Of a DNA stretch of 64,000 bases, positions 1-17,153 are shown one piece after another. The DNA is from a bacterium. GTDB lineage: Bacteria > Pseudomonadota > Gammaproteobacteria > Burkholderiales > Thiobacillaceae. Location: the NCBI GenBank assembly GCA_009772925.1, contig WOUQ01000001.1, positions 248,001 to 312,000 of the forward strand, given 5' to 3'. Each line of letters starts with the position of its first letter. Position 1 is the stretch's first letter. The translations under genes were made by a program, and so were the position numbers. The notes beneath the pieces were generated by a model. The model worked only from the letters and a program-made list of their open reading frames with translations. It was not told the DNA's origin and made no database searches.

Positions 1-934
1 CCAGGCCGCGATAGCGTTGCTCGCTGGCGCTGAGTCCTTCCTCAAACAGGCGACGGCGTCCGATTTCTTCCAACAGGCGGGCATTGGCTGCGCTGAGTTC
101 GGCGGTGCGCGCCGCCACCGCACGCTCCAGTTCTTCGCGGTGCGACTCGGCCGCCTGTTTCAGGCGCCACTCCTCGGTGACGTCGCGGGCGGTGCCGAGC
201 AGGGCCGTAGCGCGGCCTTCGACATCCCGCCGTGCGTGGCCGCGCAGGCGCAGCACGCGTTTGCTGCCGTCGGCGCGCACTTGTCGAACGTCGATATCGC
301 CCGGGTCGTCACCGGCCAGGAGGACTTCCACCGCCGCCAGCATCTTGGGGCGATCATCGGCATGCGCCATCTCCTGGAAGGTCGCGAAACGGGGTTCGAA
401 GCCACCGGGCGTCAGCCCCAGCAGGCGCAGCAGTTCCGCCGACAGCTCCACCCGATCCAGCGTCAGATCCCAGTACCAACTTCCCATCTGCGCCACGGTC
501 TGGGCTTCCGCCAGGTTCGCCTCGCTTGCCTTGAGGCGGCGTAACAGCGTGTGACGGTCGAGCGCCAGTTCGATGGCGCGGCGCAACTCGTGTTCGTCAT
601 AGGGTTTGTGCAGGTAGCCAAGAGGCGAGGTGGCGCGCGCGCGCGCATACAGCTCCTCTTCGGCATAGGCGGTCAGGTACAGCACCGCGATGTCCTGGCG
701 TTGCACCAGGAGGGTGGCGGTTTCGATGCCGTCCTGGCCACCCGGCAACACGATATCCATGATCACCAGGTCGGGCTGGCCGGACTGCGCCAGACGTATC
801 GCTTCCTCGCCACCGCCGGCGATGCCGATGACCTGGTGGCCGGCCTCGCGCAGTTGGGCGGCGAGCAGGCGCGCGAGGTCGGCATCGTCCTCGACGATGA
901 GAATGCGGGCGGGGTTGGCGGTATGACAGGTCAT
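1..934 (-). CDS. Response regulator with PAS domain (3' end beyond window)
   Basis: The minus strand is open from ATG at 934 to the window edge, about 311 codons, so the C-terminus is missing. Residues 9-125 form a receiver domain with the acidic pair EDD near residue 15, the phospho-acceptor Asp in VIMDIVLPGG, and HKPYDEHEL with the conserved Lys. A PAS/PAC domain follows (MGSWYWDL, then GTARDVTEEWRLKQ), then a coiled coil (AAESHREELERAV) and what looks like the start of a second sensor module. The missing part could be a kinase, a GGDEF domain or another output. It reads away from the globin-coupled gene, with a 224-bp spacer that could hold divergent promoters. The receiver and PAS calls are direct; the output is unknown. 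Confidence 0.8.
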   Translation of the reverse strand, partial: MTCHTANPARILIVEDDADLARLLAAQLREAGHQVIGIAGGGEEAIRLAQSGQPDLVIMDIVLPGGQDGIETATLLVQRQDIAVLYLTAYAEEELYARARATSPLGYLHKPYDEHELRRAIELALDRHTLLRRLKASEANLAEAQTVAQMGSWYWDLTLDRVELSAELLRLLGLTPGGFEPRFATFQEMAHADDRPKMLAAVEVLLAGDDPGDIDVRQVRADGSKRVLRLRGHARRDVEGRATALLGTARDVTEEWRLKQAAESHREELERAVAARTAELSAANARLLEEIGRRRLFEEGLSASEQRYRGL

Positions 935-1026
935 CGTGGGTACAGACGGTTATCGCTGGGCGATCTCCAGATTCAATACGAAGCCGACGGCAAGAATAGC
1001 CGACAGATTGGTCATGAATTGCGCGC

Positions 1027-1055
1027 TTGTAAATCCTGTACGAATTGTCTAGCAT
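1027..1055 (+). promoter_or_regulatory. Weak candidate sigma70 promoter
   Basis: TTGTAA at 1027-1032 and TAGCAT at 1050-1055 are separated by 17 bp, each matching 4 of 6 consensus bases. They lie about 100 bp upstream of the globin-coupled GGDEF-EAL gene, in an AT-richer part of the divergent spacer. This is only a positional candidate. Confidence 0.3.
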
Positions 1056-1158
1056 GCCGACGCATCGCCAACCCGGACCTCGTTGGCGCTTTCCCATCGG
1101 CATCAGGAGAGCACATGAGCGTTCGGGTTGTTGCTTTATCGGCAGGGCAGGGCGAAAC

Positions 1159-4100
1159 ATGAAGGCGCCCGGCGCACCCACGAGCGGTACGACGCCATCC
1201 AACGTCTTTGACGCGGAAGAGGTCGCCGAGCGCAAAGCCTTTCTCGAATTCGGCCCGCGGGATGGCGAACGCCTGCTCGCCCTGCATGAGCGCATCGAAC
1301 CCGCGCGCGGCGCCTTCACCGAGTCGTTCTACAGTCATATCCTCACTTTCGAGCCGATGCGCCGGCTGATGCCGGATGACCAATCCCTGCGGCGATTGCG
1401 TGGTGCCCAGTCCGCCTATTTCAGTCAGTTGACCGCCGGCGATTATGGCGAGACCTATGTCGCCAATCGCCTGCAGGTCGGCCAGATGCACCAGCGCATC
1501 GGCCTGGCGCCGAAGTGGTACATCGGCGCCTATCGTAAATACCTGTCCGGGCTGATGCCGCTGGTGTGGGCAGAATGCGATGGCGACGTCGAGCACTTTC
1601 TTGCCAGCTACGACTCCCTGCTGAAGATCGTGCTGTTCGACATGGGTCTGGCGCTGGACAGCTATTTCCAGGCCGAGCACCGGCAGTTGCAGGAAATGAA
1701 GGATTACGCCGACCGGGTGATCTGCAGCATGCCCAGCGGCCTCATGGTGCTGGACGCCGGCTTGCGGCTGCGCACCATCAATCTGGCGGCGCGCGACATG
1801 CTGGGTTTGCTGGAGCTGGATGATCTGCAGGGACGCGCATTGGACGGCCTGCTGCCCAACCCCGCCTTGCTCGAACTGGCACGCGAAGTTTTGCATATGC
1901 GGCAGGCGTCGCGCTCGCTGGTTGTCGGTCCGTTGCCGGAACTGGCGGGCCGCATCCTGTCCTTGACTTTGTCCGCCAGTACGATCGAGGAAACGCCGGT
2001 GCTCATCGTGCAGATCGAGGACGAAACCGAAAGCGTGCGCGCCGAAGCCTATCTGGCGCGCTTCCGCGCCGCGCTGGATGCCACCGATGACGCCATCTTC
2101 CTGATCGACCGCGCGCGCATGCGCTTCGTCGATGTCAATGAAACCGCTTGCAGCCAACTCGGTTATTCCCGCAGCGAGTTGCTGACCATGGGGCCGCAAG
2201 ACATCAAACCCCTGCTGACCGAAGCGGAACTGGCGGCGCGCTTCGATCGCGTGCGCGGCGAGGCGGGCGGTGTCGGTCGCCTGGAAACGCTGCATCAACG
2301 CCATGATGGCTCAACCTTCCCGGTGGAACTGAGCCTGCATGGGTTCATCTCCGAGGGCCGCAAGATGCTGGTGGCGGTGGCGCGCGACATCAGCCAGCGC
2401 AAACAGGCCGAAGCCGCACTGAAGGAGAGCGAGGAGCGTTTCCGCGCCACCTTCCAGCAGGCCGCCGTGGGCATCGCGCATATCGCGCCGGACGGGCGCT
2501 GGCTGCGCGTGAACGACAAGCTCTGCGCGATCGTCGAGCACCCTCGTGAAGAATTGCTGCGCCAGGATTTCCAGGCCATTACCCATACCGAGGATCTGGC
2601 GCGTGAGCTGGCCCTGATGCGTCAGGCCATGGATGGCGAGAGCGACAGCTACCGTCTGGAGAAACGCTTTCTGCGCGCTGATGGCAAGCCGGTATGGACC
2701 GGCGTCACCGTCTCGCTGGCGCGCACGCCGTCCGGACAGCCCAAGTATTTCATCGCGGTGATCGAGGACATTTCCGCGCGCAAGAACACCGAGGAATCCC
2801 TGCGCCTGGCGCAGCGCGCCCTGGAGGCCAGCGGCAACGGCATCGTCATCACCGATTGTCGTCAACCCGACAATCCCATCGTCTACGTCAATCCGGCCTT
2901 CGAGCGCATCACCGGCTACAGCGCGGCCGAGGCGCTGGGCCGCAATTGCCGCTTCCTGCATGGCGAAGATCACAGCCAGGCCGGCACCCGCGCCCTGGGC
3001 GAGGCGGTGGCGAACACGCGCGAAGCCAAGGTGGTGGTGCGCAATTACCGCAAGGATGGCCGCCTGTTCTGGAACGAACTGCTGATCGCGCCGGTGCGCG
3101 CCGAGGACGGCAGCGTCACCCACTTCGTCGGTGTGCAGAACGACATCAGCGAGCAGAAGCAGGCGGAGGAAAGCCTGCTGCATATGGCCACCCATGACGC
3201 GCTGACCGGCCTGCCCAATCGCAACCTGTTGCAGGACCGCATCGCCCAGGCCATCGGCTATGCCGACCGCCTGCGGCACGAGGTGGCGATCCTGTTCATC
3301 GACATCGACCGCTTCAAGAACATCAACGACAGCCTCGGCCATACCGTCGGCGATACGCTCATCACCACCCTGGCGCAACGCCTGCGCGGCGCGGTGCGCG
3401 CGGTCGACACGGTGGCGCGCGTGGGCGGCGACGAGTTCGTCGTGGTGCTGACCGATATCCAGCACGAGGCGGACGTCAACCAGGTCATCTCCGGCCTGGT
3501 GGCCTCCATCAGCCAGCCAGTGCCGGTGGACGGCCATGCGCTGACGGTGACCGCCAGCATCGGCGTCAGCCTGTATCCACACGACGGCCGGGATGTCACC
3601 AGCCTGCTGAAGAACGCCGATACCGCCATGTATCGCGCCAAGGATGCGGGCCGCAACAGTTACCGGTTCTACACCCAGGAGATGAACGCCGACGCGGTGG
3701 CGCGGCTGCGCCTGGAGAGCGACCTGCGCAACGCCATCCAGGGCGAGGAATTGCTGGTGTACTACCAGCCGCAGGTGGATGTCGAAAGCGGCCACATCGT
3801 CGCGGCGGAGGCGCTGCTGCGCTGGCGGCATCCCAGTCATGGCCTGGTGTCCCCGGCCGAATTCATTCCGCTGGCGGAAGAAACCGGCCTCATCGTGCCC
3901 ATCGGCGAGTGGGTGTTGCGCCAGGTCTGCGCGCAGATCCGGGCCTGGCGCGAGGCCGCCCTGCCCGAGGTACGCGTCGCGGTCAATCTGTCGCCGCGCC
4001 AGTTCCGCCAGCCCAACCTGGTCGAGATGATCGTCGGCGCCGTGCGTGACTATGAGTTGCCGGCTAGTTGCCTGGAGCTGGAGATCACCGAGGGCAGCCT

Positions 4101-4512
4101 GATGCACAACCCGGAGGAAGCCGAGCGGCTGTTGACCGAATTGGCGCACCATGGCTTTGATCTGTCGGTGGATGACTTCGGCACTGGCTATTCCAGCCTG
4201 GCCTATCTCAAGCGTTTTCCGCTGCATGCGCTGAAGATCGACCGCTCCTTCGTCAGCGACATCGAAACCAATCGCGAAAGCGCGGCCATCGCCGCCGGCG
4301 TCATCGCCCTGGCACACAGCCTGAACCTGAAAGTTGTGGCGGAGGGTGTGGAACAGCAAGGGCAGGCGGCGTATCTGCGCGCGCAGCGCTGCGACTTCAT
4401 TCAGGGCTATCTATATGGCCGGCCGATGCCGGCTGAAGAGTTCACTGCAAGGGTGGAAACACAGGCATGTCCGACCTCATCGATACCCCAGAGCCACACG
4501 ATACGCTCCTGA
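1159..4512 (+). CDS. Globin-coupled sensor with PAS domains, GGDEF and EAL (bifunctional c-di-GMP protein)
   Basis: 1117 aa, soluble. Residues about 20-170 match the globin-coupled sensor fold: the stretch VGQMHQRIGLAPKWYIGAY carries the proximal heme His at H111. PAS domains follow, roughly 180-300, 315-430, 435-560 and 565-690, several ending in a PAC motif such as VARDISQRKQAE. The GGDEF domain has an intact active site (GGDEF, 756-760) and an RxxD inhibitory site (RAVD) five residues before it. The EAL domain has E884-A885-L886, DDFGTGYSS and VAEGVE, so both synthesis and hydrolysis of c-di-GMP look possible. I chose ATG 1159 because a purine-rich AGGGCG precedes it and the globin fold starts soon after; an in-frame start at 1045 adds a low-complexity extension. 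Heme-bound O2 probably sets the net activity. Confidence 0.93.
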   Translation: MKAPGAPTSGTTPSNVFDAEEVAERKAFLEFGPRDGERLLALHERIEPARGAFTESFYSHILTFEPMRRLMPDDQSLRRLRGAQSAYFSQLTAGDYGETYVANRLQVGQMHQRIGLAPKWYIGAYRKYLSGLMPLVWAECDGDVEHFLASYDSLLKIVLFDMGLALDSYFQAEHRQLQEMKDYADRVICSMPSGLMVLDAGLRLRTINLAARDMLGLLELDDLQGRALDGLLPNPALLELAREVLHMRQASRSLVVGPLPELAGRILSLTLSASTIEETPVLIVQIEDETESVRAEAYLARFRAALDATDDAIFLIDRARMRFVDVNETACSQLGYSRSELLTMGPQDIKPLLTEAELAARFDRVRGEAGGVGRLETLHQRHDGSTFPVELSLHGFISEGRKMLVAVARDISQRKQAEAALKESEERFRATFQQAAVGIAHIAPDGRWLRVNDKLCAIVEHPREELLRQDFQAITHTEDLARELALMRQAMDGESDSYRLEKRFLRADGKPVWTGVTVSLARTPSGQPKYFIAVIEDISARKNTEESLRLAQRALEASGNGIVITDCRQPDNPIVYVNPAFERITGYSAAEALGRNCRFLHGEDHSQAGTRALGEAVANTREAKVVVRNYRKDGRLFWNELLIAPVRAEDGSVTHFVGVQNDISEQKQAEESLLHMATHDALTGLPNRNLLQDRIAQAIGYADRLRHEVAILFIDIDRFKNINDSLGHTVGDTLITTLAQRLRGAVRAVDTVARVGGDEFVVVLTDIQHEADVNQVISGLVASISQPVPVDGHALTVTASIGVSLYPHDGRDVTSLLKNADTAMYRAKDAGRNSYRFYTQEMNADAVARLRLESDLRNAIQGEELLVYYQPQVDVESGHIVAAEALLRWRHPSHGLVSPAEFIPLAEETGLIVPIGEWVLRQVCAQIRAWREAALPEVRVAVNLSPRQFRQPNLVEMIVGAVRDYELPASCLELEITEGSLMHNPEEAERLLTELAHHGFDLSVDDFGTGYSSLAYLKRFPLHALKIDRSFVSDIETNRESAAIAAGVIALAHSLNLKVVAEGVEQQGQAAYLRAQRCDFIQGYLYGRPMPAEEFTARVETQACPTSSIPQSHTIRS

Positions 4513-5297
4513 TCGTCGACGACGAGGCCAACATCCTCGCCGCCCTCGCGCGCCTGTTCCGTCGTGACGGCTATGCGCTGCTGCGCGCCACGAGTGGCCG
4601 GGAAGCGCTCGCGCTGCTCGCCACCCATGAGGTGGGCGTCATCCTCACCGACCAGCGCATGCCGGACATGAGCGGCGTGCAGTTTCTCGCCAAGGCGCGC
4701 GAACGCTGGCCGGACAGCGTGCGCATCATGCTCAGCGGTTACACGGAACTCTCCAGCGTGACGGAGTCGGTCAACCAGGGCGCGATCTACAAATTCCTGA
4801 CCAAGCCGTGGGACGACGAACCCCTGCGACAAACCGTGCGCGAGGCGTTTCAGCTGCATCGCGTGACGCGCGAAAACACCCGGCTCAACGCCGCCCTGCG
4901 CGAAGCCAATGCGGCGCTGACGCTATGGAACCAGGAACTGGAGCAGAGGGTGGCGGAAAAAACCCGTGAAGCGTTGCGCCATCTGCATGTGCTGCGCGCC
5001 GCCCAGGAAGTCGTCGCCCACTTGCCGCTGCCGGTGTTCGGCATCGATTGCGATGGCTGTCTGGTCATGGCCAACCAGGCCGCCGCGCGTCTCTTGCCGG
5101 GCGCCTCCGCCCGGCTCGGTGAAACCGCCGACGAACTCCTGCCCACCACGCTATTCAGCAGCATGCTGGACGCGGCGGGCAAGGGTCGGGGCCGGCTCGC
5201 GGATGGCCGCGGGATCCGCTTCTGGCGCTACCCCCTCGGTGGGGCGTCGGCATCGATTGGCACCGCCTTGGTGATTGAACATGTCGAACCTGAGTGA
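4467..5297 (+). CDS. Response regulator: receiver plus PAS-like domain
   Basis: 276 aa. The receiver (about 12-130) has DDE near residue 19, phospho-acceptor D62 in ILTDQRMPDMSG, and the FLTKPWDDE signature typical of RpfG-type receivers. A coiled coil (about 135-170) leads to a single PAS-like domain (about 172-250), with no recognised effector. The start overlaps the end of the GGDEF-EAL gene by 46 bp, so the two are probably translationally coupled. The absence of an output domain suggests it acts through protein contact, perhaps with the downstream HDOD protein. No other start exists close by in this frame. Confidence 0.88.
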   Translation: MSDLIDTPEPHDTLLIVDDEANILAALARLFRRDGYALLRATSGREALALLATHEVGVILTDQRMPDMSGVQFLAKARERWPDSVRIMLSGYTELSSVTESVNQGAIYKFLTKPWDDEPLRQTVREAFQLHRVTRENTRLNAALREANAALTLWNQELEQRVAEKTREALRHLHVLRAAQEVVAHLPLPVFGIDCDGCLVMANQAAARLLPGASARLGETADELLPTTLFSSMLDAAGKGRGRLADGRGIRFWRYPLGGASASIGTALVIEHVEPE

Positions 5298-6120
5298 ACA
5301 TACGGTGGCCATGACCGCGGTGCCGACCGTGGATGAAATCTTTCGTGGCCTGCACACCCTGCCCGGTCTTTCACCCGCCATAGAGACCATCCTGCCGCGC
5401 CTGGCGGATGACGATTTCGAAGCCGCCGAGCTTTGCCGCATGTTGGCGCGGGATCCCCTGCTGGCCGCGCGGGTGTTGCGGCTGGCGAATTCGCCCTTTT
5501 TTGGCTTGCCCAGACAGGTGGGCAGCCTGCAGGAAGCCGTCATGGTGCTGGGCACCAGCAATCTGCGCGGCCTGGTGCTATCCACCGGCTTGATCGCCGC
5601 ATTCGCCGATGCCGGGGCCACCACGCGCAGTCTCGCCACCGCCGCCGCCGCCGGCGTCCTGGCGCGCACACTGCGGCGCGACGCCGGGCTTGCCTTCACC
5701 ACCGGGCTGCTGCACAACCTGGGGGAACTGCTGCTGGGGCACTTCGCGGCGGCGCGTTGGCAGACCCTGGAAGGCACCGCGGACGAAACCGAGCCCGAGC
5801 GTCTGGAAAGGGAACGGCAGGCATTCGGCTATGACAATTGCGCGCTGGCGGCGGAGATCGCTCGCCAGTGGCGCTTCCCGAGGGAGCTGCAGAACGCCTT
5901 GCGCCAGCACCGCCACCCGTCCGACGATCCCGTCGAGCCACTGGCCGACCTCGTGCACGTGGCCTGGGCCATACAAAGCGGTGACGCGGCGCCGGCACGC
6001 ACCCCGCTGACGCCGACGGTGCTCAGCCGTCTCGGCCTGGACAACGCGGTCGGTGCCGAGGCACTGGACGCCGCCAGCCGCGCCGCGGACGAAAGCCGTC
6101 TGGCGCTGAGGGGGGCATGA
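5281..6120 (+). CDS. HDOD domain protein
   Basis: 279 aa. An HDOD domain (HD-related output domain without phosphodiesterase activity) covers residues about 15-210: LPGLSPAIETIL, RDPLLAARVLRLANSPFF, VMVLGTSNLRGLVL and TGLLHNLGELLLG are its conserved blocks. HDOD proteins usually act as adaptors in signalling or stress responses. The preceding receiver gene ends at 5297, so the two overlap by 17 bp and are probably coupled. ATG 5281 is preferred over a TTG two codons upstream. No membrane segment or signal peptide is seen. Confidence 0.88.
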   Translation: MSNLSEHTVAMTAVPTVDEIFRGLHTLPGLSPAIETILPRLADDDFEAAELCRMLARDPLLAARVLRLANSPFFGLPRQVGSLQEAVMVLGTSNLRGLVLSTGLIAAFADAGATTRSLATAAAAGVLARTLRRDAGLAFTTGLLHNLGELLLGHFAAARWQTLEGTADETEPERLERERQAFGYDNCALAAEIARQWRFPRELQNALRQHRHPSDDPVEPLADLVHVAWAIQSGDAAPARTPLTPTVLSRLGLDNAVGAEALDAASRAADESRLALRGA

Positions 6121-6121
6121 C

Positions 6122-6394
6122 TTGAGCTGGATATGGAACCGCCATCCACGTCGCGATGAGTTGCGCCCGCTCGCCGTGCAACGCTCACAGAGCGCATGGG
6201 GCGACTATTTCCTGGTGTGGGACGGCGAGGTGGTGGACATCGATTTTTTCGAAATCCCGAGCGGGACGGAGGACACGAAGCCGCATAGCGGCTACTGGCA
6301 TAGAACCGGAGTGCGCGCATGGCAGCCCCTGCCTGCACCCCCCAACAATGAAGAGGAGGAAGAACATCATGGTGCATCATGGCGAGGTCGATGA
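6122..6394 (+). CDS. Small hypothetical protein between HDOD and kinase genes
   Basis: 90 codons, start TTG at 6122 one base after the HDOD stop. A GGGGGG run at 6110-6115 gives Shine-Dalgarno spacing of 6, which is why I accept the TTG. The product is rich in Trp and acidic residues (WGDYFLVWDGEVVDIDFF, then a tail with EEEEE). Its last 26 bases overlap the start of the next kinase, and its final codons contain that kinase's AGGAGG ribosome site. I recognise no family. It could be a leader that couples translation of the kinase, or a real small adaptor. The C-terminal tail may be only a by-product of the overlapping Shine-Dalgarno sequence. Confidence 0.5.
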   Translation: MSWIWNRHPRRDELRPLAVQRSQSAWGDYFLVWDGEVVDIDFFEIPSGTEDTKPHSGYWHRTGVRAWQPLPAPPNNEEEEEHHGASWRGR

Positions 6395-7700
6395 TACGAG
6401 GGCGAAGCCCACAATGCCGCTGCAGGCGCCCGGGCGGGCCGGCGGCAAGTGTGACAAGGCCTGGCTGGAATGCATATTCGATGCCATGCCGGCTCCCATC
6501 GCCGTGCTTGACGCGGGCGGCCGGATCATTTCCGTGAACCATGCCTGGCGCGGCTTCACGGAACTGAACGTGGCCAATGCGCAGGTCTGCGCGCCGGGAG
6601 AGAACTACCTGGAGGTGCTGCGCGCCGCGGCCGAACACGGCGACGGCGGCGCGGCGCATGCCCTGGTGGCGCTGACGGCGGCACTGCGGGGCGAGAAACC
6701 CCGCTTCGAACTGGAATACCCTTGCCATGGCGCGCGCCAGGACGACTGGTTCCTGCTAAAAGCTGCTCCCCTGTCCGGTCAGGGCGGTTGCGTGGTCATG
6801 TATGTCGACATCAGCGAGCGCAAACGGGCGGAACAGGAACAGGCGCGACAGGCGGGCGAACTGCGCGAGGCCTACGACGCGCTGCGACATGCCCGTGAAC
6901 AACTGACGCATGCAGAGAAGATGGCCTCCATCGGCCAACTCGCCGCCGGCGTCGCGCACGAGATCAACAACCCCATCGGCTATCTGCATTCCAACCTGGG
7001 CACCCTGGGGCAGTACGTCCAGGACGTGCTGGCCGTGGTCGCCGCGTTCGAGCGGGTCGTGGAAGGAGTGGCCACTCCTGCGTGCCGCGCCGGGCTGGAA
7101 CAGGCCAAGCGGGAGACGGACTTCGCCTTCCTGCTGGAGGACATTCCCAAGCTGCTGGAGGAATCCCAGGAAGGCATCCAGCGCGTGCGCAAGATCGTGC
7201 AGGATCTGAAGGATTTCGCCCACGCCGGCGACAACGAGGACTGGCAATGGCAAGACCTCCGCCACTGCCTGAAACGCACCCTCAACATCGTCCACAACGA
7301 GCTCAAGTACAAGGCCGAGGTGCATCTGGAGTGCGAGGACATCCCGGAAATCCGCTGCCTGCCCGGCCAGCTCAACCAGGTGATCATGAATCTGCTCGTC
7401 AACGCGGCGCATGCCATCGAAACCAAGGGGGTGGTGCGGGTGCGGGCCTGGCGGGAAGCGGAATGGGTGTGGGTGGCGATCTCGGATACCGGTTGCGGCA
7501 TTCCACAGGAGGTCATCGACCGCATCTTCGATCCGTTCTTTACCACCAAACCGGTGGGCAAGGGGACCGGCCTGGGCCTTTCGATTTCCTACGGCATCGT
7601 GAAAAAACATGGTGGCCGCATCGAGGTGGAAAGCCAGGTCGGCCAGGGCACCACCTTCCGCGTCGGCTTGCCCATCGAAGGGCCGGAAGATGCCGAGTAG
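6369..7700 (+). CDS. PAS sensor histidine kinase (soluble)
   Basis: 443 aa. ATG 6369 follows AGGAGG at 8-9 bp, a strong site. PAS domain about 28-150 ([17 protein letters not shown], ending [11 protein letters not shown]), a coiled coil, then a dimerisation region with phospho-acceptor H197 in [16 protein letters not shown]. The catalytic domain has the N box [16 protein letters not shown], the G1 box DTGCGIP and the G2 box [13 protein letters not shown]. The AHEINNP box is the type found in NtrB/ZraS-like kinases. No transmembrane segments, so it senses a cytoplasmic cue. It overlaps the following kinase by 11 bp. The nearest separate receivers are the single-domain protein at 12.9 kb and the REC-HD-GYP protein at 14.9 kb; the pairing is inferred. 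Confidence 0.93.
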
Positions 7701-9816
7701 CACGGGCACCACGGCTGCGACCGTCCCCCCGTCGCAGGCGGAGGACGTGGCCGATGTCGTCCTGAAAAGCTCGACGCGCCCCCTGCTGTTCGGCCTTGCG
7801 AGCATGCTGTTGCTGGTCGGCATCGGCATCGCGGTGGGCGTGTTCCAGTTGCGCCAGATGGCGCAGACGCTGGACGATGTGGTGCGCGAGGACGCCACCG
7901 CCATATCGGCCATCGTCACCATGATGCGCAGTGCGCGTGCCCGCCTGCTGCGCCTGAACGAGGCGCTGGAATTGAGCGATCCGTTCGAACGCGACGAAAA
8001 ACTGCTGGAGTTCGAACGCCTGGAAGGCGAGTTTGGTGGCGCGCGCCTGCGTCTGCTGGCCTTGCCCCTGAGCGCGCAGGAGCAGGCATTGCGCGAGCGC
8101 CAGGATGTTCTGCTGGGACAACTCATGGGGCATTTCGACTGGATCCTCGCGCTGGCCCGCGTGGACGAGCTGAATGCCGCCCGGGAATCCTTCAAGGCCG
8201 ACGCCATCCCGGCGCAAAGCGACATGCTGGATACCCTGATGCACTGGGTGGAACTGCGCCAGGTGCAGCAGGGTGCGCGCGCCGAGCAGGCGCGCGCGCG
8301 GCAACGCGACGCCGTCGGCATGATGCTGGGCGTGGGTCTGGTCGCGGTGCTGCTGGGCGGACTGGTGGCGGCGCTGGTGTATCGCTGGAACCGGCGCGCC
8401 ATCAGCCGTCTCACCGAGCAGCAGGCACGCTTGCGCGCGGCGCTGGCGGAACAGGCCATCCGCCAGCGCGCCCTGGATGAACACTCCATCGTCAGCATCA
8501 CCGATGCCGCCGGCAACATCACCTACGTCAACGACAAGTTCTGCCAGGTCAGCGGTTACCCGCGCGCGGAACTGCTTGGCGCCAACCATCGCATCGTCAA
8601 TGCCGGCCATCATCCGCCCGAGTTTTTCCAGAGCATGTGGCAAACCATCGCCACCGGCCACATCTGGCGGGGTGAGGTGAAGAACCGCGCCAAGAATGGC
8701 CGCCCCTACTGGGTGCAAACCACCATCCTGCCGATGCTCGATGAGCACGGCCTGCCCATGCGCTACATCTCGGTACGTACCGAGATCAGCCACATCATGG
8801 AGCTGGAGGAGAAGGTGCGCGAGGCCAACCTGATCCTGCAAAGCAACGTCATCGAGCGCACGCGCGAGCTGGAACAGGCCAAGCTGGAACTGGAGCGGGA
8901 ACTGGCCGATCGGGTACGCACCCAGGCCGAATTGCAGCGTAGCTACGATGAATTACAGACCCTGCACCACCAATTGCAGGAGACCCAGCAATACCTGATG
9001 CAGTCGGAAAAACTCGCCGCCGTCGGCCAGTTGGCGGCGGGCATGGCGCACGAGATCAACAACCCCATCGGCTTCGTCGCCTCCAATCTGAGCATGTTGA
9101 GCCGCTACCAGGACACCCTGGCCCAGTTGCTGGAGCGCTATCGTCAGGCCGAATCCGGACTCGCGGCGGCGGTGCGCGACGATCTGGCCGACCTGCGCCG
9201 CAAGGCGGATCTGGATTTCGTGCTGGAAGACGCGCGCGCGTTGCTGGCCGAATCCGGTTCCGGCGTCGAGCGGGTGCGCCAGATCGTGCAGGACCTGCGC
9301 GATTTCTCACGGGTGGACAGCAGCGGCGAATGGCAATGGAGCGACCTCAACCATGCCCTGGACAGCACCCTCAATCTGCTCGGCGAGCGCCTCTCCACGG
9401 CGGTGGAGGTGTGTCGCGAGTATGGCGAGCTGCCGCCGGTGCAGTGTCGGCCGGCCGAACTCAACCAGGTCTTCTTCAACCTGCTGAATAACGCGCTGCA
9501 GGCCATGCCCAACGGCGGCCGGCTGACCCTGCGCAGCGGGCATGAGGCTGAGCGGGTCTACGTCGAGATCGAAGATACCGGCATCGGCATTCCCGATACC
9601 GTGCGCCCGCGCATTTTCGAGCCCTTCTTCACGACGCGACCGGTCGGCCAGGGTGCCGGTCTGGGCCTGTCGCTGGCCTATGCCGTGGTGCAGCAGCACG
9701 GCGGCGAGATCGGCGTGCGTAGCCTGGTTGACATTGGCTCCGCGTTCCGTGTCAGCCTACCGGTAAGCCAGGCTGGCCAGGCCGCCGCGCATGTTTCAGC
9801 GGAATCGAGCGCATGA
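7690..9816 (+). CDS. Membrane sensor histidine kinase with periplasmic helical domain and PAS
   Basis: 708 aa. Two transmembrane helices (about 33-54 and 211-233) enclose a roughly 150-residue periplasmic domain rich in Arg, Glu and Leu, likely a four-helix bundle. A PAS domain follows (about 255-375: [36 protein letters not shown]), then a long coiled coil (about 380-440), then H454 in [12 protein letters not shown] and an ATPase domain ([35 protein letters not shown]). ATG 7690 overlaps the previous kinase stop and has a GGCCGG purine-poor ribosome site. It belongs to the same H-box class as the upstream kinase, so the two may be paralogues or form mixed dimers. Ligand unknown. Confidence 0.92.
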
Positions 9817-12800
9817 GCCACATTTCATTCGAGGCACTGCGCGTCCTGCTGCTGCTGGCCATCATCCTGGCGCTCTGGTTGTTTCGGCGCCGCGGCTGCA
9901 AGGCGGGGACGTGCGCTGGGCTGGGCCTGGTCATGGCCGGATTTGGTCTGATGCTGGCCGGCACTCTGCTGCACATCGCAGGCGACTGGCGGGGCGCGGT
10001 GGGATTCGCCTCACCCTGGAACCGGCTGGGCGAGCACCTCGTCGGCTATCTCGGCGGTCTGCTGCTGACCCTGGTGGGCCTGCTGCGCTGGTTCAAGGCC
10101 GTGCGCGCCCAGGAACTCCGCCAGGGCCGCATGCTGAGCGCCATCACACGCTCCCAGGCCAATTTCATCCATACCTCCGACACGCGCCAGGCCTTCGATG
10201 ATTTATTGCGCGACATCCTCGATCTCACCGGCAGCGAGTACGGCTTCATCGGCGAGGTGCACCAGCGAGAAGGTCAGCCTTACCTGAAGACACATGCCAT
10301 CACCAACATCGCCTGGAATGAAGAAACCCGGCGTTTCTTCACCGAGCACGCGCCGCAGGGCATGGAGTTCACCAACCTGAATACGCTGTTCGGCGCCGCC
10401 CTGCGCAGCGGCGAACCGGTCATCGCCAACGATCCCGCCCGGGATCCACGGAGCGGCGGGCTGCCGCCGGGACATCCCGCGCTGCGCAGCTTTCTCGGCT
10501 TGCCCATCCATATGGGCGGCGCCATGGTGGGCATGCTGGGTATCGCCAACCGGCGCGATGGCTACGATCAGGGACTGATCGACTGGCTGGACCCATTGTC
10601 GAGCACCATCGGTCAGCTCTTCGAGGCGCGGCGGGCGGTGTTGGCGCGGCAGGCCATCGAGACCTCGCACCGGCGCCTCTCCCTGGTGGCCAGTCACACC
10701 AACAACGGCGTGGTGATCACCGACCGGGACGGGCGCGTGCAGTGGGTCAACGCCGGTTTCGAGCGCCTCACCGGCTACGCCCTGTCGGAGGTGCTCGGAC
10801 GCAAACCCGGCGGGGTGCTGCATGGCCCGACCAGCGATCCGGCGACCGTGGCGCAGATGCGCGCGGCGTTGCAGCGCGGCGAATCGTTCGAGGTGGAAAT
10901 CCTCAATTACGCCAAAGACGGTCACGCCTACTGGATCAGTCTCAGTGTCGATCCGCTGCGCGACGAGGTGGGACAGATCCAGGGTTACATCGGCATCGAG
11001 ACTGACATCAGCGCGCGCAAGGCGGCGCAAGCCGCGCTGGAGGTGGGCGCCCGGCACACCCAGGCGGTGCTCGACAATGTTCTCGATGGCATCATCACCA
11101 TCGATGGCCGCGGCATCATCGCCTCTTTCAACCTGGCGGCCGAGCGCATCTTCGGCTATGTCGTGACGGAGGTGATTGGCCACAACGTCAGCATGCTGAT
11201 GCCGGAACCGCATCGCGGCCAGCATGATGATTACTTGCGCAATTACCAGGCATCGGGTGTGGCCAAAGTGATCGGCATCGGCCGCGAAGTGGAGGGACAA
11301 CGCAAGGATGGTTCCACGTTCCCGATGGAACTTGCGGTGACCGCCATCGACCGCGACGGTCAGCCCCTGTATATCGGCATCGTGCGCGACATCAGCGAGC
11401 GCAAGCGCATGGAACGCCTGAAGAGAGAGTTCATCTCCACGGTCAGCCACGAATTACGCACGCCATTGACCGCCATCCGCGGCGCCCTCGGCCTCATCGC
11501 CGGCGGTGCGCTGGGTGAGTTGCCTGGGCAAGTCACGCGCATGATCGAGATCGCGCACCGGAACAGTGAACATCTGACGCATCTCATCAACGATCTGCTG
11601 GACATGGAAAAGATGGCGGCCGGCGCCATGCGTTTCGATATGCAGGCACAGGACCTGATGCCGCTGGTGGAACGGGCGATCGAGACCTACCACACTTACG
11701 GCGAGGCGCGCCGTGTCTCCTTCCGGCTGAGCGCGCGCGTCGAACTGGCGATGGTGCGCGTCGATGCCCAGCGTTTTCTGCAAGTCATGGCCAATCTGCT
11801 CTCCAATGCCGCCAAGTTCTCGCCCGTGGATAGTCAGGTCGAGATTGCCGTGACCCGCCTGGATGATCATGTCCGCGTGTCGGTCAGCGATCATGGCCCC
11901 GGCATCCCCGCCCACTTCCGCGACCGCATCTTCGAGAAATTCTCCCAGGCCGATGCTTCCGATGCTCGCCCGCAGGGCGGTAGTGGTCTCGGCCTGGCGA
12001 TCACCCGGGAACTGCTAGAGCGCATGTCCGGACAGATCGGCTTCGACTCACTGGAGGGAGATGGCACCACCTTCCATGTCGATCTGCCCTTGCTGACCGC
12101 CGATGCGTCCGAGGGTGACACCGACGCCACCGCACAGGAATTGCCTGGCGCCCCGCGCCTGCTGGTGGTGGAAGACAATGCCGATGTGGCTGGTCTGTTG
12201 TCCTCCCTGCTGCGGCACGCCGGCTTCAACGTCGACCTGGCCGGCGATGCCCGTTCCGCCCTGGCGCGCCTGCAAGAGCAACGCTATGCCGCCATGACCC
12301 TGGATCTACTCCTACCCGACCAACATGGCATCGAGATCATCCGCACGCTGCGCGCCACGCCCGAACATCGCGACCTGCCGATCATCGTCGTTTCCGCCCT
12401 GGCGCAAGAAGGCCAGCTCACGCTGGCGGGTGAGTTCGATGCGGTGGACTGGCTCGCCAAACCCTTCGACGAAAGCCGGCTGCTGACGTCGGTGCGCCAG
12501 GCGGTGCATGGTGAGGACGGCAGGAAACCGCGCGTGTTGCATGTGGAGGACGATGCCGACCTGTTGCAGGTGGTGTCCACCCTGGCGCGGGAAATCGCCG
12601 AGTTCATCCCCGCGCGCACCCTGGTGGAAGCGCGCGCCCAGTTGCGGCATGGACCCTTCAGCGTAGTGATCCTCGACCTGGATTTACCCGACGGTTCCGG
12701 CTGGAGCCTGATGGCTGACCTGCAAAGCTTGCACCCAACACCGCGCGTGATCGTCTTGTCCGCCCAGGATACCGCGGCGAGCCCGGCCGAGGCGGTCGTG

Positions 12801-12908
12801 GCCACCATGCTGAAATCCCGCATTTCCAATGACGAGTTGCTGGCCACCCTGCAGCGGGCCATCCGGCTCCCCACGAACAGCATGGAACAACCCTATGCCG
12901 AAGCTTGA
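9813..12908 (+). CDS. Hybrid histidine kinase: 3 TM, GAF, PAS, FixL-like PAS, HisKA/HATPase, two receivers
   Basis: 1031 aa, starting in an ATGA overlap with the previous kinase. Three N-terminal helices (about 7-25, 34-55, 75-93), a GAF domain (about 110-285, with GSEYGFIGEV and FLGLPIHMGGAMVGMLGIANR), PAS 1 (about 290-405) and PAS 2 (about 410-535). PAS 2 resembles the FixL heme pocket: H471 in GQHDDYL, then IGIGREVEGQRKDGSTFPMEL. The kinase core has H546 in VSHELRTP and the ATPase boxes NLLSNAAKFS, DHGPGIP and GSGLGLAI. Two receivers end the protein (LLVVEDN with LDLLLPDQ; VLHVEDD with LDLDLPDGSG). The last receiver lacks the usual Lys-Pro pair near its end, so its phosphorylation is less sure. 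It probably feeds the downstream receiver and Hpt proteins. Confidence 0.93.
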   Translation: MSHISFEALRVLLLLAIILALWLFRRRGCKAGTCAGLGLVMAGFGLMLAGTLLHIAGDWRGAVGFASPWNRLGEHLVGYLGGLLLTLVGLLRWFKAVRAQELRQGRMLSAITRSQANFIHTSDTRQAFDDLLRDILDLTGSEYGFIGEVHQREGQPYLKTHAITNIAWNEETRRFFTEHAPQGMEFTNLNTLFGAALRSGEPVIANDPARDPRSGGLPPGHPALRSFLGLPIHMGGAMVGMLGIANRRDGYDQGLIDWLDPLSSTIGQLFEARRAVLARQAIETSHRRLSLVASHTNNGVVITDRDGRVQWVNAGFERLTGYALSEVLGRKPGGVLHGPTSDPATVAQMRAALQRGESFEVEILNYAKDGHAYWISLSVDPLRDEVGQIQGYIGIETDISARKAAQAALEVGARHTQAVLDNVLDGIITIDGRGIIASFNLAAERIFGYVVTEVIGHNVSMLMPEPHRGQHDDYLRNYQASGVAKVIGIGREVEGQRKDGSTFPMELAVTAIDRDGQPLYIGIVRDISERKRMERLKREFISTVSHELRTPLTAIRGALGLIAGGALGELPGQVTRMIEIAHRNSEHLTHLINDLLDMEKMAAGAMRFDMQAQDLMPLVERAIETYHTYGEARRVSFRLSARVELAMVRVDAQRFLQVMANLLSNAAKFSPVDSQVEIAVTRLDDHVRVSVSDHGPGIPAHFRDRIFEKFSQADASDARPQGGSGLGLAITRELLERMSGQIGFDSLEGDGTTFHVDLPLLTADASEGDTDATAQELPGAPRLLVVEDNADVAGLLSSLLRHAGFNVDLAGDARSALARLQEQRYAAMTLDLLLPDQHGIEIIRTLRATPEHRDLPIIVVSALAQEGQLTLAGEFDAVDWLAKPFDESRLLTSVRQAVHGEDGRKPRVLHVEDDADLLQVVSTLAREIAEFIPARTLVEARAQLRHGPFSVVILDLDLPDGSGWSLMADLQSLHPTPRVIVLSAQDTAASPAEAVVATMLKSRISNDELLATLQRAIRLPTNSMEQPYAEA

Positions 12909-13284
12909 ACGCATTCTCTGTGTGGAAGACGATCCGGATATCCAGGCGGTCATCCAGTTGGCCCTGGAGACGGTGGGCGGTTTCACAGTCGAACTGTGCG
13001 CTTCCGGGCGCGCGGCGCTGGCTAAGGTAGCAGGTTTCCAGCCCGACCTGATTCTGCTTGATGTGATGATGCCAGGCCTGGACGGCCCCGCTACGCTGGC
13101 GGCGCTGCGCGCATTGCCCGAGGCTGCCGCGCTGCCGGTGTTCTTCATGACCGCCAAGGTGCAGTCCGATGAGTTGGATCACTTTCTTTCCCTCGGCGCC
13201 CTGGCCGTGATCGCCAAGCCGTTCGATCCCATGACGCTGGCGCAGGATATCCGCGCCCACTGGCAAGCGCACCATGGCGGCTGA
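12895..13284 (+). CDS. Single-domain response regulator (CheY-like)
   Basis: 129 aa, one receiver domain only: ILCVEDDPDIQ, phospho-acceptor Asp in LILLDVMMPGLDG, FMTAK with the conserved Thr, and IAKPFDPMTL with the conserved Lys. It starts inside the end of the hybrid kinase (14-bp overlap), so it is co-translated with it. Without an output domain it probably shuttles phosphate, for example to the Hpt domain at the start of the next gene, which itself overlaps this one by 11 bp. Family and operon position are clear; the relay is inferred. Confidence 0.93.
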   Translation: MPKLERILCVEDDPDIQAVIQLALETVGGFTVELCASGRAALAKVAGFQPDLILLDVMMPGLDGPATLAALRALPEAAALPVFFMTAKVQSDELDHFLSLGALAVIAKPFDPMTLAQDIRAHWQAHHGG

Positions 13285-14905
13285 TTCTTCTCAGGCACGC
13301 CGCATCCTGGAGAATCTGCGGCGGGGCTTCATCGACCAGTTGCCGATGCGTCTGGCCGCCATCGAACAGGCCTGGATCGACTGCTACATGGCCAGCGACC
13401 CGGCGCCGGCGCTGTACGAACTGACCCGCCTGGCGCACAGCCTGCGCGGCAGCGCGACAACCTACGGGCTGCTGGCGCTGGGTGATGTGGCGGCGCAACT
13501 GGAAAACGACTTGCGACCTTGGCTGGCCAGCGAAACGGTGCCCGATCCGCTTGCTCGGGCGGAGCTCGATGCGCTGGTGGCGCGGATGCGAGAGGTGGTC
13601 CATGCCCTGCCGGAATTACCGCCCGAGAGCGGTTCGGAGGAGAACGCGACGACGGCAACCAGGGCGCTCGTTTACATACTGGAAGACGATGTGGCCCAAT
13701 CCCGCTGGTTGCGCGCGCAACTGGGACATTTCGGCTATCAGGCCGAGGTGTTCGACAAGCCGGCCGAACTGTTGGCCCAGGTGGCCCGGCAACGCCCCGA
13801 CGCCTGCGTCCTGGACATCATCATCGGGGCGGATGAACAGGCCGGCATCGCCCTCGGCCATGACTTGCACCGCGACAGCCCCAAGCTGCCGTTGATCTAC
13901 GCCAGCGTGCGTGACGACATCGACGCGCGTCTGGGGGCGGTGCGTGCCGGCGGCCAGGCCTATGTGACCAAGCCCATCAACCTGCTCGGCCTGCTGGAGG
14001 AGCTGGACCGTGTGAGCGGCCACCTGATGGAGGCGCCCTATCGCATCCTGGTGGTGGAAGACGATGCTTCCCTGGCGCGCTATTACGGCGCGCTGCTGCG
14101 TGATGCCGGCATGGAGACACGGACGCTGTCAGAGCCCTTGCGGATATTGGATGCCTTGGCGGAATTCAGCCCCGACCTGCTGCTGATGGATGTCTACATG
14201 CCCGACTGCACGGGCGCGGAGCTGGCCCGGGTGATCCGCCAGCACGCTGTGTATGGCGCCTTGCCCATCGTGTTTCTCTCCGCCGAAGACGACAAGGACA
14301 TGCAGTATGCCGCGCTGCGCCATGGCGGCGACGATTTTCTGACCAAACCCGTCAATGCCCGCGCGCTGATCCGCGCCGTCGGTATCCGCGCGCAGCGCAC
14401 CCGGCTGCTGAACCGGATGATGGTGTGCGATGCCATGACCGGCTTGCTTAATCACGGCCGCATCAAGGAGATTCTGATCGGGGAGGTGGGGCGCGCGCGT
14501 CGTGCCAACACATCGCTGAGCATCGCCATGCTCGACCTGGACCACTTCAAGTCGATCAACGATCGCTTCGGTCACGCGGCCGGCGACCGCGTCATCAAGA
14601 GCCTGGTGCGTCTGCTGCGTCAGCGCCTGCGCGGCAGCGATCTGGTCGGCCGCTATGGCGGCGAGGAATTTCTGGTAATCCTGCCCGATTGCCAGCGCGA
14701 TGCCGCCTGGCACCTGATCGACGGCATCCGCGCCCGCTTCGCCCGCATTGCACATTGCGGTGATGGGCCGAACCAGGTCTTTTCCGCAAGCTTGAGCGCT
14801 GGCCTGGCTGAGTTCCCGTTGGTCGACACGGCGGAAAACCTGCTGCTGGCGGCCGACAATGCACTTTATGAAGCCAAGCGGCAGGGCCGCGACCGTACCT
14901 GTTAA
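13274..14905 (+). CDS. Hpt-REC-REC-GGDEF diguanylate cyclase
   Basis: 543 aa. The Hpt domain (about 8-118) has the relay His H55 in RLAHSLRGSATTYG. Receiver 1 (about 130-250) has EDD, Asp in CVLDIIIG and Lys in YVTKPINL. Receiver 2 (about 255-372) has VEDD, LLMDVYMPDCTG and FLTKPVNA. The GGDEF domain (about 380-540) has an intact GGEEF site (462-466) and an RxxD inhibitory site (RGSD) just upstream, so c-di-GMP synthesis with product inhibition is expected. This layout would let a phosphorelay from the upstream hybrid kinase pass through Hpt and receivers to the cyclase. It overlaps the single-domain regulator by 11 bp. Confidence 0.94.
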   Translation: MAADSSQARRILENLRRGFIDQLPMRLAAIEQAWIDCYMASDPAPALYELTRLAHSLRGSATTYGLLALGDVAAQLENDLRPWLASETVPDPLARAELDALVARMREVVHALPELPPESGSEENATTATRALVYILEDDVAQSRWLRAQLGHFGYQAEVFDKPAELLAQVARQRPDACVLDIIIGADEQAGIALGHDLHRDSPKLPLIYASVRDDIDARLGAVRAGGQAYVTKPINLLGLLEELDRVSGHLMEAPYRILVVEDDASLARYYGALLRDAGMETRTLSEPLRILDALAEFSPDLLLMDVYMPDCTGAELARVIRQHAVYGALPIVFLSAEDDKDMQYAALRHGGDDFLTKPVNARALIRAVGIRAQRTRLLNRMMVCDAMTGLLNHGRIKEILIGEVGRARRANTSLSIAMLDLDHFKSINDRFGHAAGDRVIKSLVRLLRQRLRGSDLVGRYGGEEFLVILPDCQRDAAWHLIDGIRARFARIAHCGDGPNQVFSASLSAGLAEFPLVDTAENLLLAADNALYEAKRQGRDRTC

Positions 14906-14939
14906 TCGACTTACCGCATAGCACCATAGGAAGACCAAG

Positions 14940-16250
14940 ATGGAAACCCACACCGATCCACCCCAACCCCGCGTGCTCCTGGTTGACGACGAACCCAACA
15001 TCCTGACCAGTCTGCGCCGCCTGCTGCGCGCCGAGGGCTATGCCATCCACACCGCGGACGGTGGGGCACAGGCCCTGGCCATGCTCGCCGAGGAACCGGC
15101 CGACGTGATCGTTTCCGACATGCGCATGCCCCACATGAGCGGCGCCGAGTTCCTCAAGCAGGCCCGCGAGCGCTGGCCGGGGACCTTGCGCGTCCTGCTC
15201 ACCGGCTATGCCGACATGGCGTCGACGGTGGCGGCGGTGAACGAGGGTGGCATTCATGCCTACCTGAACAAACCCTGGGATGAAACACAGTTGCTGCAAA
15301 CCCTGCGCGGTTTGGTCGAGCGCAAACGCCTGGCGGACGAGCGCGATGCGCTGCAGGAACTGACCACGCGCCAGAATCAGGAACTGGCTTTCCTCAACGA
15401 GGGGCTGGAGGATGCGGTTCGCGCCCGTACCGCTGAACTCAAGCAGACAGCCACATTTCTTGAATTGAGCAACAAGAAGCTCAAGGAGTCCTTTCTCACC
15501 TCGCTGCGCGTGTTCTCCAACCTGGTGGAATTGCGCCAGAAAAACCTGGGTGGCCATGGCAAGCGGGTCGCCGACCTGGCGCGCAGGATCGCCGTGCACC
15601 TCGACCTGCGCGAGCAGGAAATCAACGACATCACGGTGGCGGGGCTGCTGCATGACATCGGCAAGATCAGTTGGCCGGACGAGATGATCTCCAAGCCGCT
15701 CAGCGTGTTCACCGCGGAAGAGCGCTGGCTGGCCATGAAGCATCCGGTGGTCGCCGAAACGGCGCTGATGGAACTGGAAAGCCTGCGTGGAGGCGCACAC
15801 ATCATCCGCCACCATCATGAGCATTTCAGCGGCAAGGGCTACCCCGATGGCCTTTCCGGTCTTGAAATTCCCATCGGTTCGCGCATTTTGGCGGTGGCCA
15901 ATGACTATGACGGGCTTCAGTTGGGCACGATCACTCAGCGCCGCCGCTCGGCCGCCGAGGCACTGGGCATGATCAAGGAGGGCAGCGGTAGCCGCTATGA
16001 CCCATCCATCGTGACGGCCTTCCTGGAAGTCATGGGTCATGCGGAAGCCCGGGCGAACGTGGGCCCGGAACACTCGATGGAGGTGTCCGAACTAAAGCCC
16101 GGCGACCGACTGTCCAGGACCTTGTTCAGCCACGACGGGGTGATGCTGCTGAACAAGGGATACGTGCTGGATGACCTGTTGATCAGGCAGTTGAAGAAAT
16201 ACGAGGAGAGCGCGGGGAAATTAACGGAAATATGGGTGGCCACCCCCTGA
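14940..16250 (+). CDS. Response regulator with HD-GYP c-di-GMP phosphodiesterase domain
   Basis: 436 aa, RpfG-like. Receiver (about 10-128) with D60 in VIVSDMRMPHMSG and NKPWDETQL, a coiled coil (about 130-185), then an HD-GYP domain: H238-D239 in LLHDIGKI, the HHHEHF stretch and G300-Y301-P302 in GKGYPDGL, all metal and catalytic signatures present. It should hydrolyse c-di-GMP to pGpG or GMP. A C-terminal extension of about 70 residues follows (LKPGDRLSRTLF ... GVMLLNKGYVLDD), as seen in some two-component HD-GYP proteins. AGGAAG lies 8 bp before ATG 14940. It is the hydrolytic counterpart of the cyclase directly upstream, from which it is separated by 34 bp. Confidence 0.94.
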   Translation: METHTDPPQPRVLLVDDEPNILTSLRRLLRAEGYAIHTADGGAQALAMLAEEPADVIVSDMRMPHMSGAEFLKQARERWPGTLRVLLTGYADMASTVAAVNEGGIHAYLNKPWDETQLLQTLRGLVERKRLADERDALQELTTRQNQELAFLNEGLEDAVRARTAELKQTATFLELSNKKLKESFLTSLRVFSNLVELRQKNLGGHGKRVADLARRIAVHLDLREQEINDITVAGLLHDIGKISWPDEMISKPLSVFTAEERWLAMKHPVVAETALMELESLRGGAHIIRHHHEHFSGKGYPDGLSGLEIPIGSRILAVANDYDGLQLGTITQRRRSAAEALGMIKEGSGSRYDPSIVTAFLEVMGHAEARANVGPEHSMEVSELKPGDRLSRTLFSHDGVMLLNKGYVLDDLLIRQLKKYEESAGKLTEIWVATP

Positions 16251-16304
16251 TTTCTGACCCATGCGGTTTGCAACGCTTGCCTAGGGACACCCTGTGGAGC
16301 AGCC

Positions 16305-17153
16305 ATGATCAATGTTACGGCCCAGGAACTCGACACCATACTCACCACCATCGATCGGGCGTTGTCCATGCACGATGCCTGGCGCGAGCAGATACAACGC
16401 ACACTTGCCTGCAAGCTGCCGCCACGCGAGGCGGACATTGCCGACGATGCGCACCATCAGTGTGCCTTCGGCCAATGGTTCTACGGCCCCGCCAATGCCA
16501 GCCTGCGCGGCTTGCCGAGTTTCAGGAAAGTGGAAGAAATGCACCAGATCATGCACAACCGCGCGCGGGAGTTGTGCGTTCGGCTGAAGGGCCATTGGCC
16601 CGTTACGCCCAGTGAGTACGATCCCTATATCGAACAGGTCGCCCGCTTTCGAGCCGAACTGGTGGCGTTGCGGCAGAAGGTGTTCGAAACCCTGCACAAG
16701 ATTGATCCGCTCACGGGCGCCTATTGCAGCGCGTACTTACTACCCGATCTCGAGCGTGAGCAGGCGGTCACGAAAGCCCAGGGGCAGGCCTGTAGCCTGC
16801 TCATGCTGCGCTTCGATCTATACGAGATCAACCAAACGCATGGTCGCGCGAAAGGGGACGAGATTCTGCGCGCGAGTATTTCGGGCATACGCGACGCGCT
16901 CGGTAGGGAACAAAAAGTTTACCGCTACGCCGGCGCTGAATTCGTCATCTGCCTCTCGGGCAAGGATGCCAGCGAGGCACACAAGATCAGGGGAAGCCTG
17001 CTGGCGATCGTCAGCAAGGTGTTGGAGGCTACGCTGGGCGGCTCCAACTCGAGCCTGAACATCTTCTATGCCATCACCGAACTGGATTCTGACACCTACA
17101 TTGAACAACTCATCAGCCTGGCTGAACGTGCCACATACACCATAAAAATCTGA
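16305..17153 (+). CDS. CZB-domain protein with degenerate GGDEF domain (DgcZ-like layout)
   Basis: 282 aa. The N-terminal chemoreceptor zinc-binding domain has H23, C53 (QCAFGQWFYG), H80 and H84, matching the four zinc ligands of E. coli DgcZ. The C-terminal domain (about 125-280) has the GGDEF fold entry DPLTGAY, but the catalytic motif reads AGAEF (209-213), so the metal-binding acidic residue at the third position is lost. The substrate loop is also altered (FDLYEINQTHGRAKGDE). It is therefore probably not a cyclase. It may bind nucleotide, or act as a zinc- or redox-tuned partner of the active cyclases upstream. GGAG precedes ATG 16305 by 7 bp. Its base composition looks less GC-rich than its neighbours. 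Confidence 0.88.
   Translation: MINVTAQELDTILTTIDRALSMHDAWREQIQRTLACKLPPREADIADDAHHQCAFGQWFYGPANASLRGLPSFRKVEEMHQIMHNRARELCVRLKGHWPVTPSEYDPYIEQVARFRAELVALRQKVFETLHKIDPLTGAYCSAYLLPDLEREQAVTKAQGQACSLLMLRFDLYEINQTHGRAKGDEILRASISGIRDALGREQKVYRYAGAEFVICLSGKDASEAHKIRGSLLAIVSKVLEATLGGSNSSLNIFYAITELDSDTYIEQLISLAERATYTIKI

Follow-up and report, generated by a model that had tools for sequence, protein, structure and literature searches.

A twelve-gene composite signalling block, possibly a transferable oxygen-tuned c-di-GMP switch, in a genome of the Thiobacillaceae

Does a long run of adjacent signalling genes in a bacterial genome represent one circuit, or a neighbourhood in which abundant regulators happen to lie side by side? 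The question is raised by the beginning of a 64,000-nucleotide (nt) stretch of DNA (hereafter the window; G000:C26:248001-312000) from G000, a draft genome of the Thiobacillaceae (3.22 Mb in 76 contigs), where a first-pass annotation had noticed eleven or twelve consecutive genes for phosphorelay and for cyclic diguanylate (c-di-GMP) and had suggested a link to oxygen. From our analysis, the block is real but needs correction: it consists of ten genes on the forward strand and two divergent ones, twelve in total, over ∼22.5 kb. It is best explained, with a probability of roughly 55%, as one composite, transferable signalling unit, an oxygen- (possibly nitric oxide (NO)-) tuned c-di-GMP switch built from modules. 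Coordinates left of window position 1 are written as negative numbers, and the congeners used for comparison are called G014 and G021.

The ten forward-strand genes (1159-17153) begin with a protoglobin-PAS-PAS-PAS-GGDEF-EAL protein (1159-4512) that carries GGDEF, RxxD and EAL motifs and a proximal His and distal Tyr; its open frame extends back to a TTG at 1045, but the start at 1159 is preferred on the grounds of homology and of a conserved element in the leader. It is followed by a REC-coiled coil-PAS regulator, here called RR276 (4467-5297), assigned by domain search and homologue alignment. RR276, whose C-terminal part is PAS-like, probably ends in a PAS domain, since Pfam recognises PAS in 9 of 20 aligned homologues, though not in the window's copy. 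The HDOD protein (5281-6120) appears by eye to have HN in place of HD; HDOD domains are described in an excerpt of PMC4114195 as kin of the HD phosphohydrolases without key active-site residues. Three histidine kinases come next, namely a PAS kinase (HK4, 6348-7700, start likely within 6348-6414), a 4-helix-bundle/PAS kinase recognised by domain search (HK5, 7690-9816) and a GAF-PAS-PAS(FixL-type)-HK-REC-REC hybrid kinase recognised by domain search and FixL alignment (HK6, 9813-12908). They precede a stand-alone REC (12895-13284, domain search), an Hpt-REC-REC-GGDEF diguanylate cyclase with GGEEF present (13274-14905), a REC-HD-GYP phosphodiesterase with both HD and GYP motifs (14940-16250), and a zinc-site pseudo-cyclase combining CZB with a degenerate GGDEF (AGAEF) by alignment (16305-17153). 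The divergent pair on the reverse strand is a PAS-rich kinase of 1655 aa, REC-PAS(about 8)-HisKA_2-HATPase (window 934 to -4033; L001:11967), and an ANTAR response regulator that lies outside the window (to window ∼-4605; L001:11395-12126); G021 has homologues of both at the corresponding position.

The genes were said to run mostly in one direction, which holds for the ten co-directional genes from 1159, whereas the first 934 nt belong to the opposite strand. Overlaps of 4-46 nt, also claimed, were found at six junctions, measuring 46, 17-23, 11, 4, 14 and 11 nt in gene order with the starts as chosen here. Gaps of 34 nt and 54 nt stand ahead of the HD-GYP and CZB genes, and the largest one (at least 35 nt, probably ∼230-290 nt) precedes HK4. 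Terminator-like sites between 800 and 17900 were at chance level (10 observed against 10.2 expected). The protoglobin survived scrutiny (PF11563 at 3.5e-35), but the GGDEF and EAL domains of the same protein had been overlooked. Likewise, making and breaking of c-di-GMP are both represented by predicted intact domains (two GGDEF cyclases, and EAL and HD-GYP as two phosphodiesterases), whereas for the supposed sensing of c-di-GMP, Pfam gave no PilZ, its receptor domain, in the ten forward-strand proteins, the divergent kinase or the ANTAR protein. Catalysis and phosphorylation depend on defined residues of the GGDEF, EAL, HD-GYP, receiver and kinase domains; receiver aspartates are present in the five forward-strand proteins checked, and kinase histidines in HK4, HK5 and HK6.

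The boundaries of the block are disclosed by G014 (98% complete), in which homology to the left flank runs at 93-94% identity as far as window -5037 and homology to the right flank begins at window 17410 (94-96%), the two matches abutting. In this genome the norB end adjoins sequence equal to window ∼17,426 and the whole ∼22.5 kb is absent. The right edge is accordingly placed in the non-coding stretch 17154-17426, with homology to the empty site resuming at ∼17427, and the left edge at window ∼-5042 (L001:10958), just past a hairpin behind norB that resembles a terminator by eye. Among 23 genomes of the genus, a DNA query spanning the G014 junction gave a full-length match in G014 only. Close orthologues of the four block genes searched are missing from G014, the best matches being 46% (partial) for Hpt-REC-REC-GGDEF, 32% for HDOD and 29% for CZB, with none at E≤1e-80 for HD-GYP. 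In G021, by contrast, the block is found in the order ANTAR, kinase, globin, RR276, HDOD, HK4, HK5, HK6, REC, Hpt-REC-REC-GGDEF and CZB, with no HD-GYP gene. Its proteins are 41-80% identical to those of G000 and the collinear DNA matches 72-77%; the divergent kinase is shorter (1260 aa), with a match spanning 1056 of 1655 residues only. These comparisons mark the block off as a discrete unit, missing from one close relative and lying at another chromosomal position in a second species.

An ancestral block deleted from G014 and most congeners, rather than an acquired island, would also leave such a pattern, and we consider this somewhat unlikely. The absence of mobility genes, terminal repeats and a clear target duplication is in its favour, as is a G+C content (64.3%) little different from that of the flanks (66.3-66.7%). 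Against it, the G021 block occupies another chromosomal position with different neighbours while being bounded by the same outer genes, at which homology stops, and Hpt-REC-REC-GGDEF at ≥60% identity occurs in only 2 of the 23 genus genomes (G000 and G021). The different location of the unit in G021 speaks for movement, and loss from G014 may still account for the empty site. The status of an integrative element is not supported for this presumably transferred unit, given that integrase domain, terminal repeats and clear duplication are all wanting. A tRNA scan limited to the window, leaving out the 5 kb to its left, found a single tRNA, at 45594. Plasmid records gave distant matches: RR276 matched 5 of 72,556 at E≤1e-30, all below 60% identity, and the globin protein matched 1381 at E≤1e-60, likewise all below 60% (best 10 of 1381 listed).

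It is conceivable that abundant signalling genes have clustered by chance in a signalling-rich genome, since it encodes 25 GGDEF domains and has further loci with several signalling genes each. We regard this as highly improbable, as order is kept in G021 and, for a core of the block, in 18 families, and neighbouring genes are found fused. RR276-like proteins were found in 54 of 399 genomes of the order and the HD-GYP protein in 62, with both in 48; in 40 of these 48, representing 18 families and 21 genera, the two genes lie within 12 kb, where random placement would give ∼0.7% co-location. This count used 58 of 68 RR276 match rows, the ten omitted rows covering the REC part only and their genomes being retained via other rows. 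In the remaining 8 genomes the pair is farther apart or on other contigs, and 6 genomes have RR276 only. A class sample of 258 genomes had an RR276-like protein in 17 besides G000. In 34 annotated loci, picked for having hits rather than at random, HDOD is the next gene after RR276 in 28 (counting the next same-strand gene with a recognised domain) and HD-GYP is downstream in 29. These come from 37 chosen loci, of which L132, L137 and L146 gave no RR276 by gene picking, L146 being a miss for which a match exists. The core GGDEF-EAL / REC-PAS / HDOD / kinases / REC-HD-GYP is recurrent across Burkholderiales.

The relation of RR276 to the globin enzyme is illuminated by the same loci, in 6 of which (6/34) RR276 forms the C-terminal end of an EAL or GGDEF-EAL protein, while an EAL-bearing gene precedes it in 14 more. 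These fusions and preceding genes offer the strongest indication of a partnership between RR276 and the globin enzyme. The globin gene itself is the first gene of the core in G144 and, in a locus lacking HD-GYP, in G130; it is fused to RR276 in G434. Other pieces occur without the rest of the block, such as the HK6-REC-Hpt-REC-REC-GGDEF set (G011, G094 and G104) and the CZB homologue (G011, G006, G001 and others), and in G013 the globin gene stands with a divergent ANTAR regulator and no other block gene beside it. The block is a mosaic of five parts: (i) globin-GGDEF-EAL; (ii) RR276, HDOD, two kinases and REC-HD-GYP; (iii) HK6, REC and Hpt-REC-REC-GGDEF; (iv) the CZB pseudo-cyclase; and (v) the divergent kinase/ANTAR pair. 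Conservation of gene order, which the first-pass annotation had proposed as its check, was found for all but one gene in G021 and for the core in many families, but the full block is rare. Because order is kept to this extent, comparison of the loci indicates a unit rather than scattered homologues.

Variants of the core were also encountered. In G095 (L134:8494-10123), a REC 71% identical to RR276 and an HD-GYP 64% identical to the window's are split by a frame change, and the region may be a fusion remnant of the core operon. In L127, L133, L149, L153 and L156 the core is followed by a REC gene, a frame of 214-219 aa and a kinase; the frame begins M(A/P)E(F/Y)D and is MglA-like by eye, and four of these loci add a REC protein of 742-754 aa.

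What might such a unit sense? AfGcHK and HemAT have a proximal His and a distal Tyr that serve the heme; both residues are retained in the globin and conserved in 12 of 13 distinct proteins in which the region could be aligned. For the second PAS of HK6, FixL is the nearest match (E=4.8e-34); the heme His and distal Arg are kept, and this is true of all 6 HK6-like proteins having the domain, the window's included. In the FixL numbering, which we take to be H200 for the heme ligand, R220 for the distal Arg and R206 and H214 for propionate contacts, the last two positions are replaced in HK6, so the domain is better called a FixL-type PAS than a FixL on this alignment. The heme residues of the two domains lend partial support to the suggested oxygen link. 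In G434 (L155:6800-9499), a globin-GGDEF-EAL-REC fusion has a globin without the heme His and distal Tyr and is probably a heme-less sensor.

The CZB protein, reported earlier as such, does retain all of its zinc ligands (three His and one Cys), but its cyclase motif is degenerate. It probably has no cyclase activity because GGEEF has become AGAEF and the motif is degenerate in all 8 of the proteins aligned. This family of zinc-site pseudo-cyclases (window 16305-17153; L069, L138, L139, L140, L141, L142 and L143) has six representatives outside this cluster.

Every domain and several of the gene pairs are already known, and the resemblances are instructive for what the unit may do. HK6 resembles FixL in its PAS, as described above, but is a hybrid kinase with GAF and two REC, and the neighbouring output is a diguanylate cyclase and not FixJ. 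The CZB protein has the layout of E. coli DgcZ (CZB-GGDEF) with the four zinc ligands, differing in AGAEF for GGEEF. The DosC/DosP system of E. coli, encoded together, comprises two genes, whereas here there are twelve, among them genes for kinases, receivers, HDOD and HD-GYP proteins and a pseudo-cyclase. In an excerpt of PMC8846402, DosC and DosP (DgcO/PdeO) are an O2-tuned globin cyclase and a heme-PAS phosphodiesterase. The globin protein is like DcpG of Paenibacillus dendritiformis in uniting globin, GGDEF and EAL, a likeness that rests on DcpG's described domains; it differs in having three PAS between globin and GGDEF and in being followed by kinase and receiver genes and a separate REC-PAS partner. 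In DcpG, according to part of PMC10882959, O2 favours the phosphodiesterase and NO favours the cyclase. NosP-NosK-NosR of Burkholderia shares a kinase and a REC-HD-GYP regulator with the block, whose HD-GYP passes the NosR cut-off, but the block has no FIST sensor and its HD-GYP motif is intact, whereas that of NosR is degenerate according to PMC12570481. For the composite and for the core operon, no description was found in open PMC text (mostly listings), in agreement with the first-pass annotation, which knew of no operon of exactly such content.

We propose the following mechanism for the presumed transferable unit. Binding of O2 (or NO) to the globin heme would tip the GGDEF-EAL protein towards synthesis or breakdown of c-di-GMP. 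RR276 would act as a detached receiver of the globin enzyme, phosphorylated by HK4 and HK5, which would also set the REC-HD-GYP enzyme. FixL is active without O2, and the FixL-type heme PAS may similarly make HK6 active at low O2, passing phosphate via Hpt/REC to the second cyclase. All inputs would then converge on one c-di-GMP output, with low O2 raising c-di-GMP (attachment) and O2 lowering it (dispersal). The CZB pseudo-cyclase may add a zinc/redox input through protein contact, and the ANTAR/kinase pair probably sets transcription. Networks of c-di-GMP are usually pictured as scattered genes tuned singly. If the proposal is true, a whole multi-input circuit is present or absent as a unit in closely related genomes, and such networks can also be altered when an already wired circuit is transferred. 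The block also supplies concrete partners of the core operon (GGDEF-EAL / REC-PAS / HDOD / kinases / REC-HD-GYP) that can be tested jointly.

Several observations weigh against this explanation. Regarding transfer, the junction has no clear target duplication, with only the 7-nt TTTTTTC at both edges; terminal inverted repeats gave nothing past an 11-nt imperfect match; and an integrase domain is absent from all twelve block proteins. Since G000 is a draft in 76 contigs, there may be a mis-join at the block edges. Gene by gene, the absence from G014 is covered for Hpt-REC-REC-GGDEF, HDOD, CZB and HD-GYP, and apparently not for the globin or RR276. Regarding joint expression, a second promoter may lie in the HDOD-HK4 gap. 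Regarding the signal, FixL positions 206 and 214 are N and K in the HK6 PAS, so that two propionate contacts are changed, and the fused globin of G434, without both heme residues, indicates that a gas ligand is dispensable for the core. Which way each enzyme responds is an assumption drawn from DcpG and FixL.

The immediate neighbourhood of the block suggests another signal, and a nitric-oxide circuit tied to denitrification, sensing NO arising from the neighbouring genes, was weighed and is distinctly unlikely. Genes for nirJ, siroheme decarboxylase (nirDL-like), cytochrome d1 (nirF-, nirS-like) and norCB-like proteins lie at window -14555 to -5100, where nirJ and the decarboxylase pass curated cut-offs and the other names rest on domains. 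The HD-GYP protein reaches a score of 552 with NF053512 (NCBIfam 'NosR family'; cut-off 400), and the DcpG precedent indicates that a globin GGDEF-EAL can answer NO (PMC10882959, in part). However, no nirS, norB or norC match was found in 39 kb around the G021 block, though nirS is elsewhere in that genome; the adjacency to nirS/norCB in G000 exists because the block occupies that site, and is lineage-specific. The NosR cut-off is also passed by all ten core-locus HD-GYPs tested, so the label is broad. The block has no FIST (NosP) domain. A globin-headed core also occurs in G144 and G434, neither of which gave a nirS match at E≤1e-60. The NO/denitrification link was dropped as the leading explanation because G021 does not share the adjacency and all ten core HD-GYPs tested fall under the NosR model. 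Two FIST-domain (NosP-type) proteins are encoded elsewhere in the genome (G000:C1:158853-159425 and G000:C26:191634-192122).

Returning to the composite c-di-GMP unit, we examined the leader ahead of the globin gene. A promoter-like TTGTAA-17-TAGCAT on the forward strand (1027-1055) has 8 of 12 consensus letters by eye and is conserved in G021, although it scored under the threshold of the promoter scan. Between it and the globin start lies the inverted repeat GCCAACCCGGACCTCGTTGGC (1067-1087, forward strand), with the core CAACC-N7-CGTTG, which is identical in G021 (L068:19076-19096) while much of the surrounding sequence differs. The five globin genes nearest to the window's that have a leader to compare, those of G000, G021, G013, G144 and G130 (L085, L086, L087), all carry the core in it; L033 ends inside its globin gene. 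Of the other 29 upstream stretches two have the loose repeat, making 7 of 34 overall against a rate of 3.7% from single-base shuffles, with L111 counted twice among the 34. A tighter form of the repeat occurs in four globin leaders only, across all loci. The repeat may serve as an operator close to where transcription begins, or form a 5' hairpin.

The loose form is a weaker guide, and its abundance counts against a special role: 11 copies occur in 2.30 Mb of loci, where ∼9 are expected (1.6 per 400 kb). The surroundings of the 22 other GGDEF genes of G000, 396 kb in all, contain two loose copies. The copies beyond the five globin leaders may be due to chance, including one in G140 (L144:17571) that stands before a frame with PilZ-like motifs (by eye) near the core operon. 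Folding of the leader is little above shuffles (z -1.2). Rfam at gathering thresholds gave no match in L001 or window 1-20000, the leader having three matches far below the cut-offs, and a simple pattern for the ANTAR target RNA (tandem hexaloop hairpins) gave none on either strand of 80 kb. We suggest, as a doubtful refinement, a complete O2-to-c-di-GMP circuit with sensors of its own, two phosphorelays, two makers, two breakers, a zinc pseudo-cyclase and a cis-acting leader, which would travel between chromosomes as a cassette and give the recipient a ready attachment/dispersal programme, and in which the repeat is a putative site of a shared regulator; if the cassette is so built, a regulator common to the globin-headed loci would bind CAACC-N7-CGTTG on DNA or RNA.

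Beyond the block, long frames that resemble RND efflux genes by eye (L068:8537-11677, L138:14619-17759 and window 24564-27692) occur in G021, G011 and the window, each no more than ∼10 kb from the block or its CZB gene, and these RND-like neighbours may hint at a former common neighbourhood.

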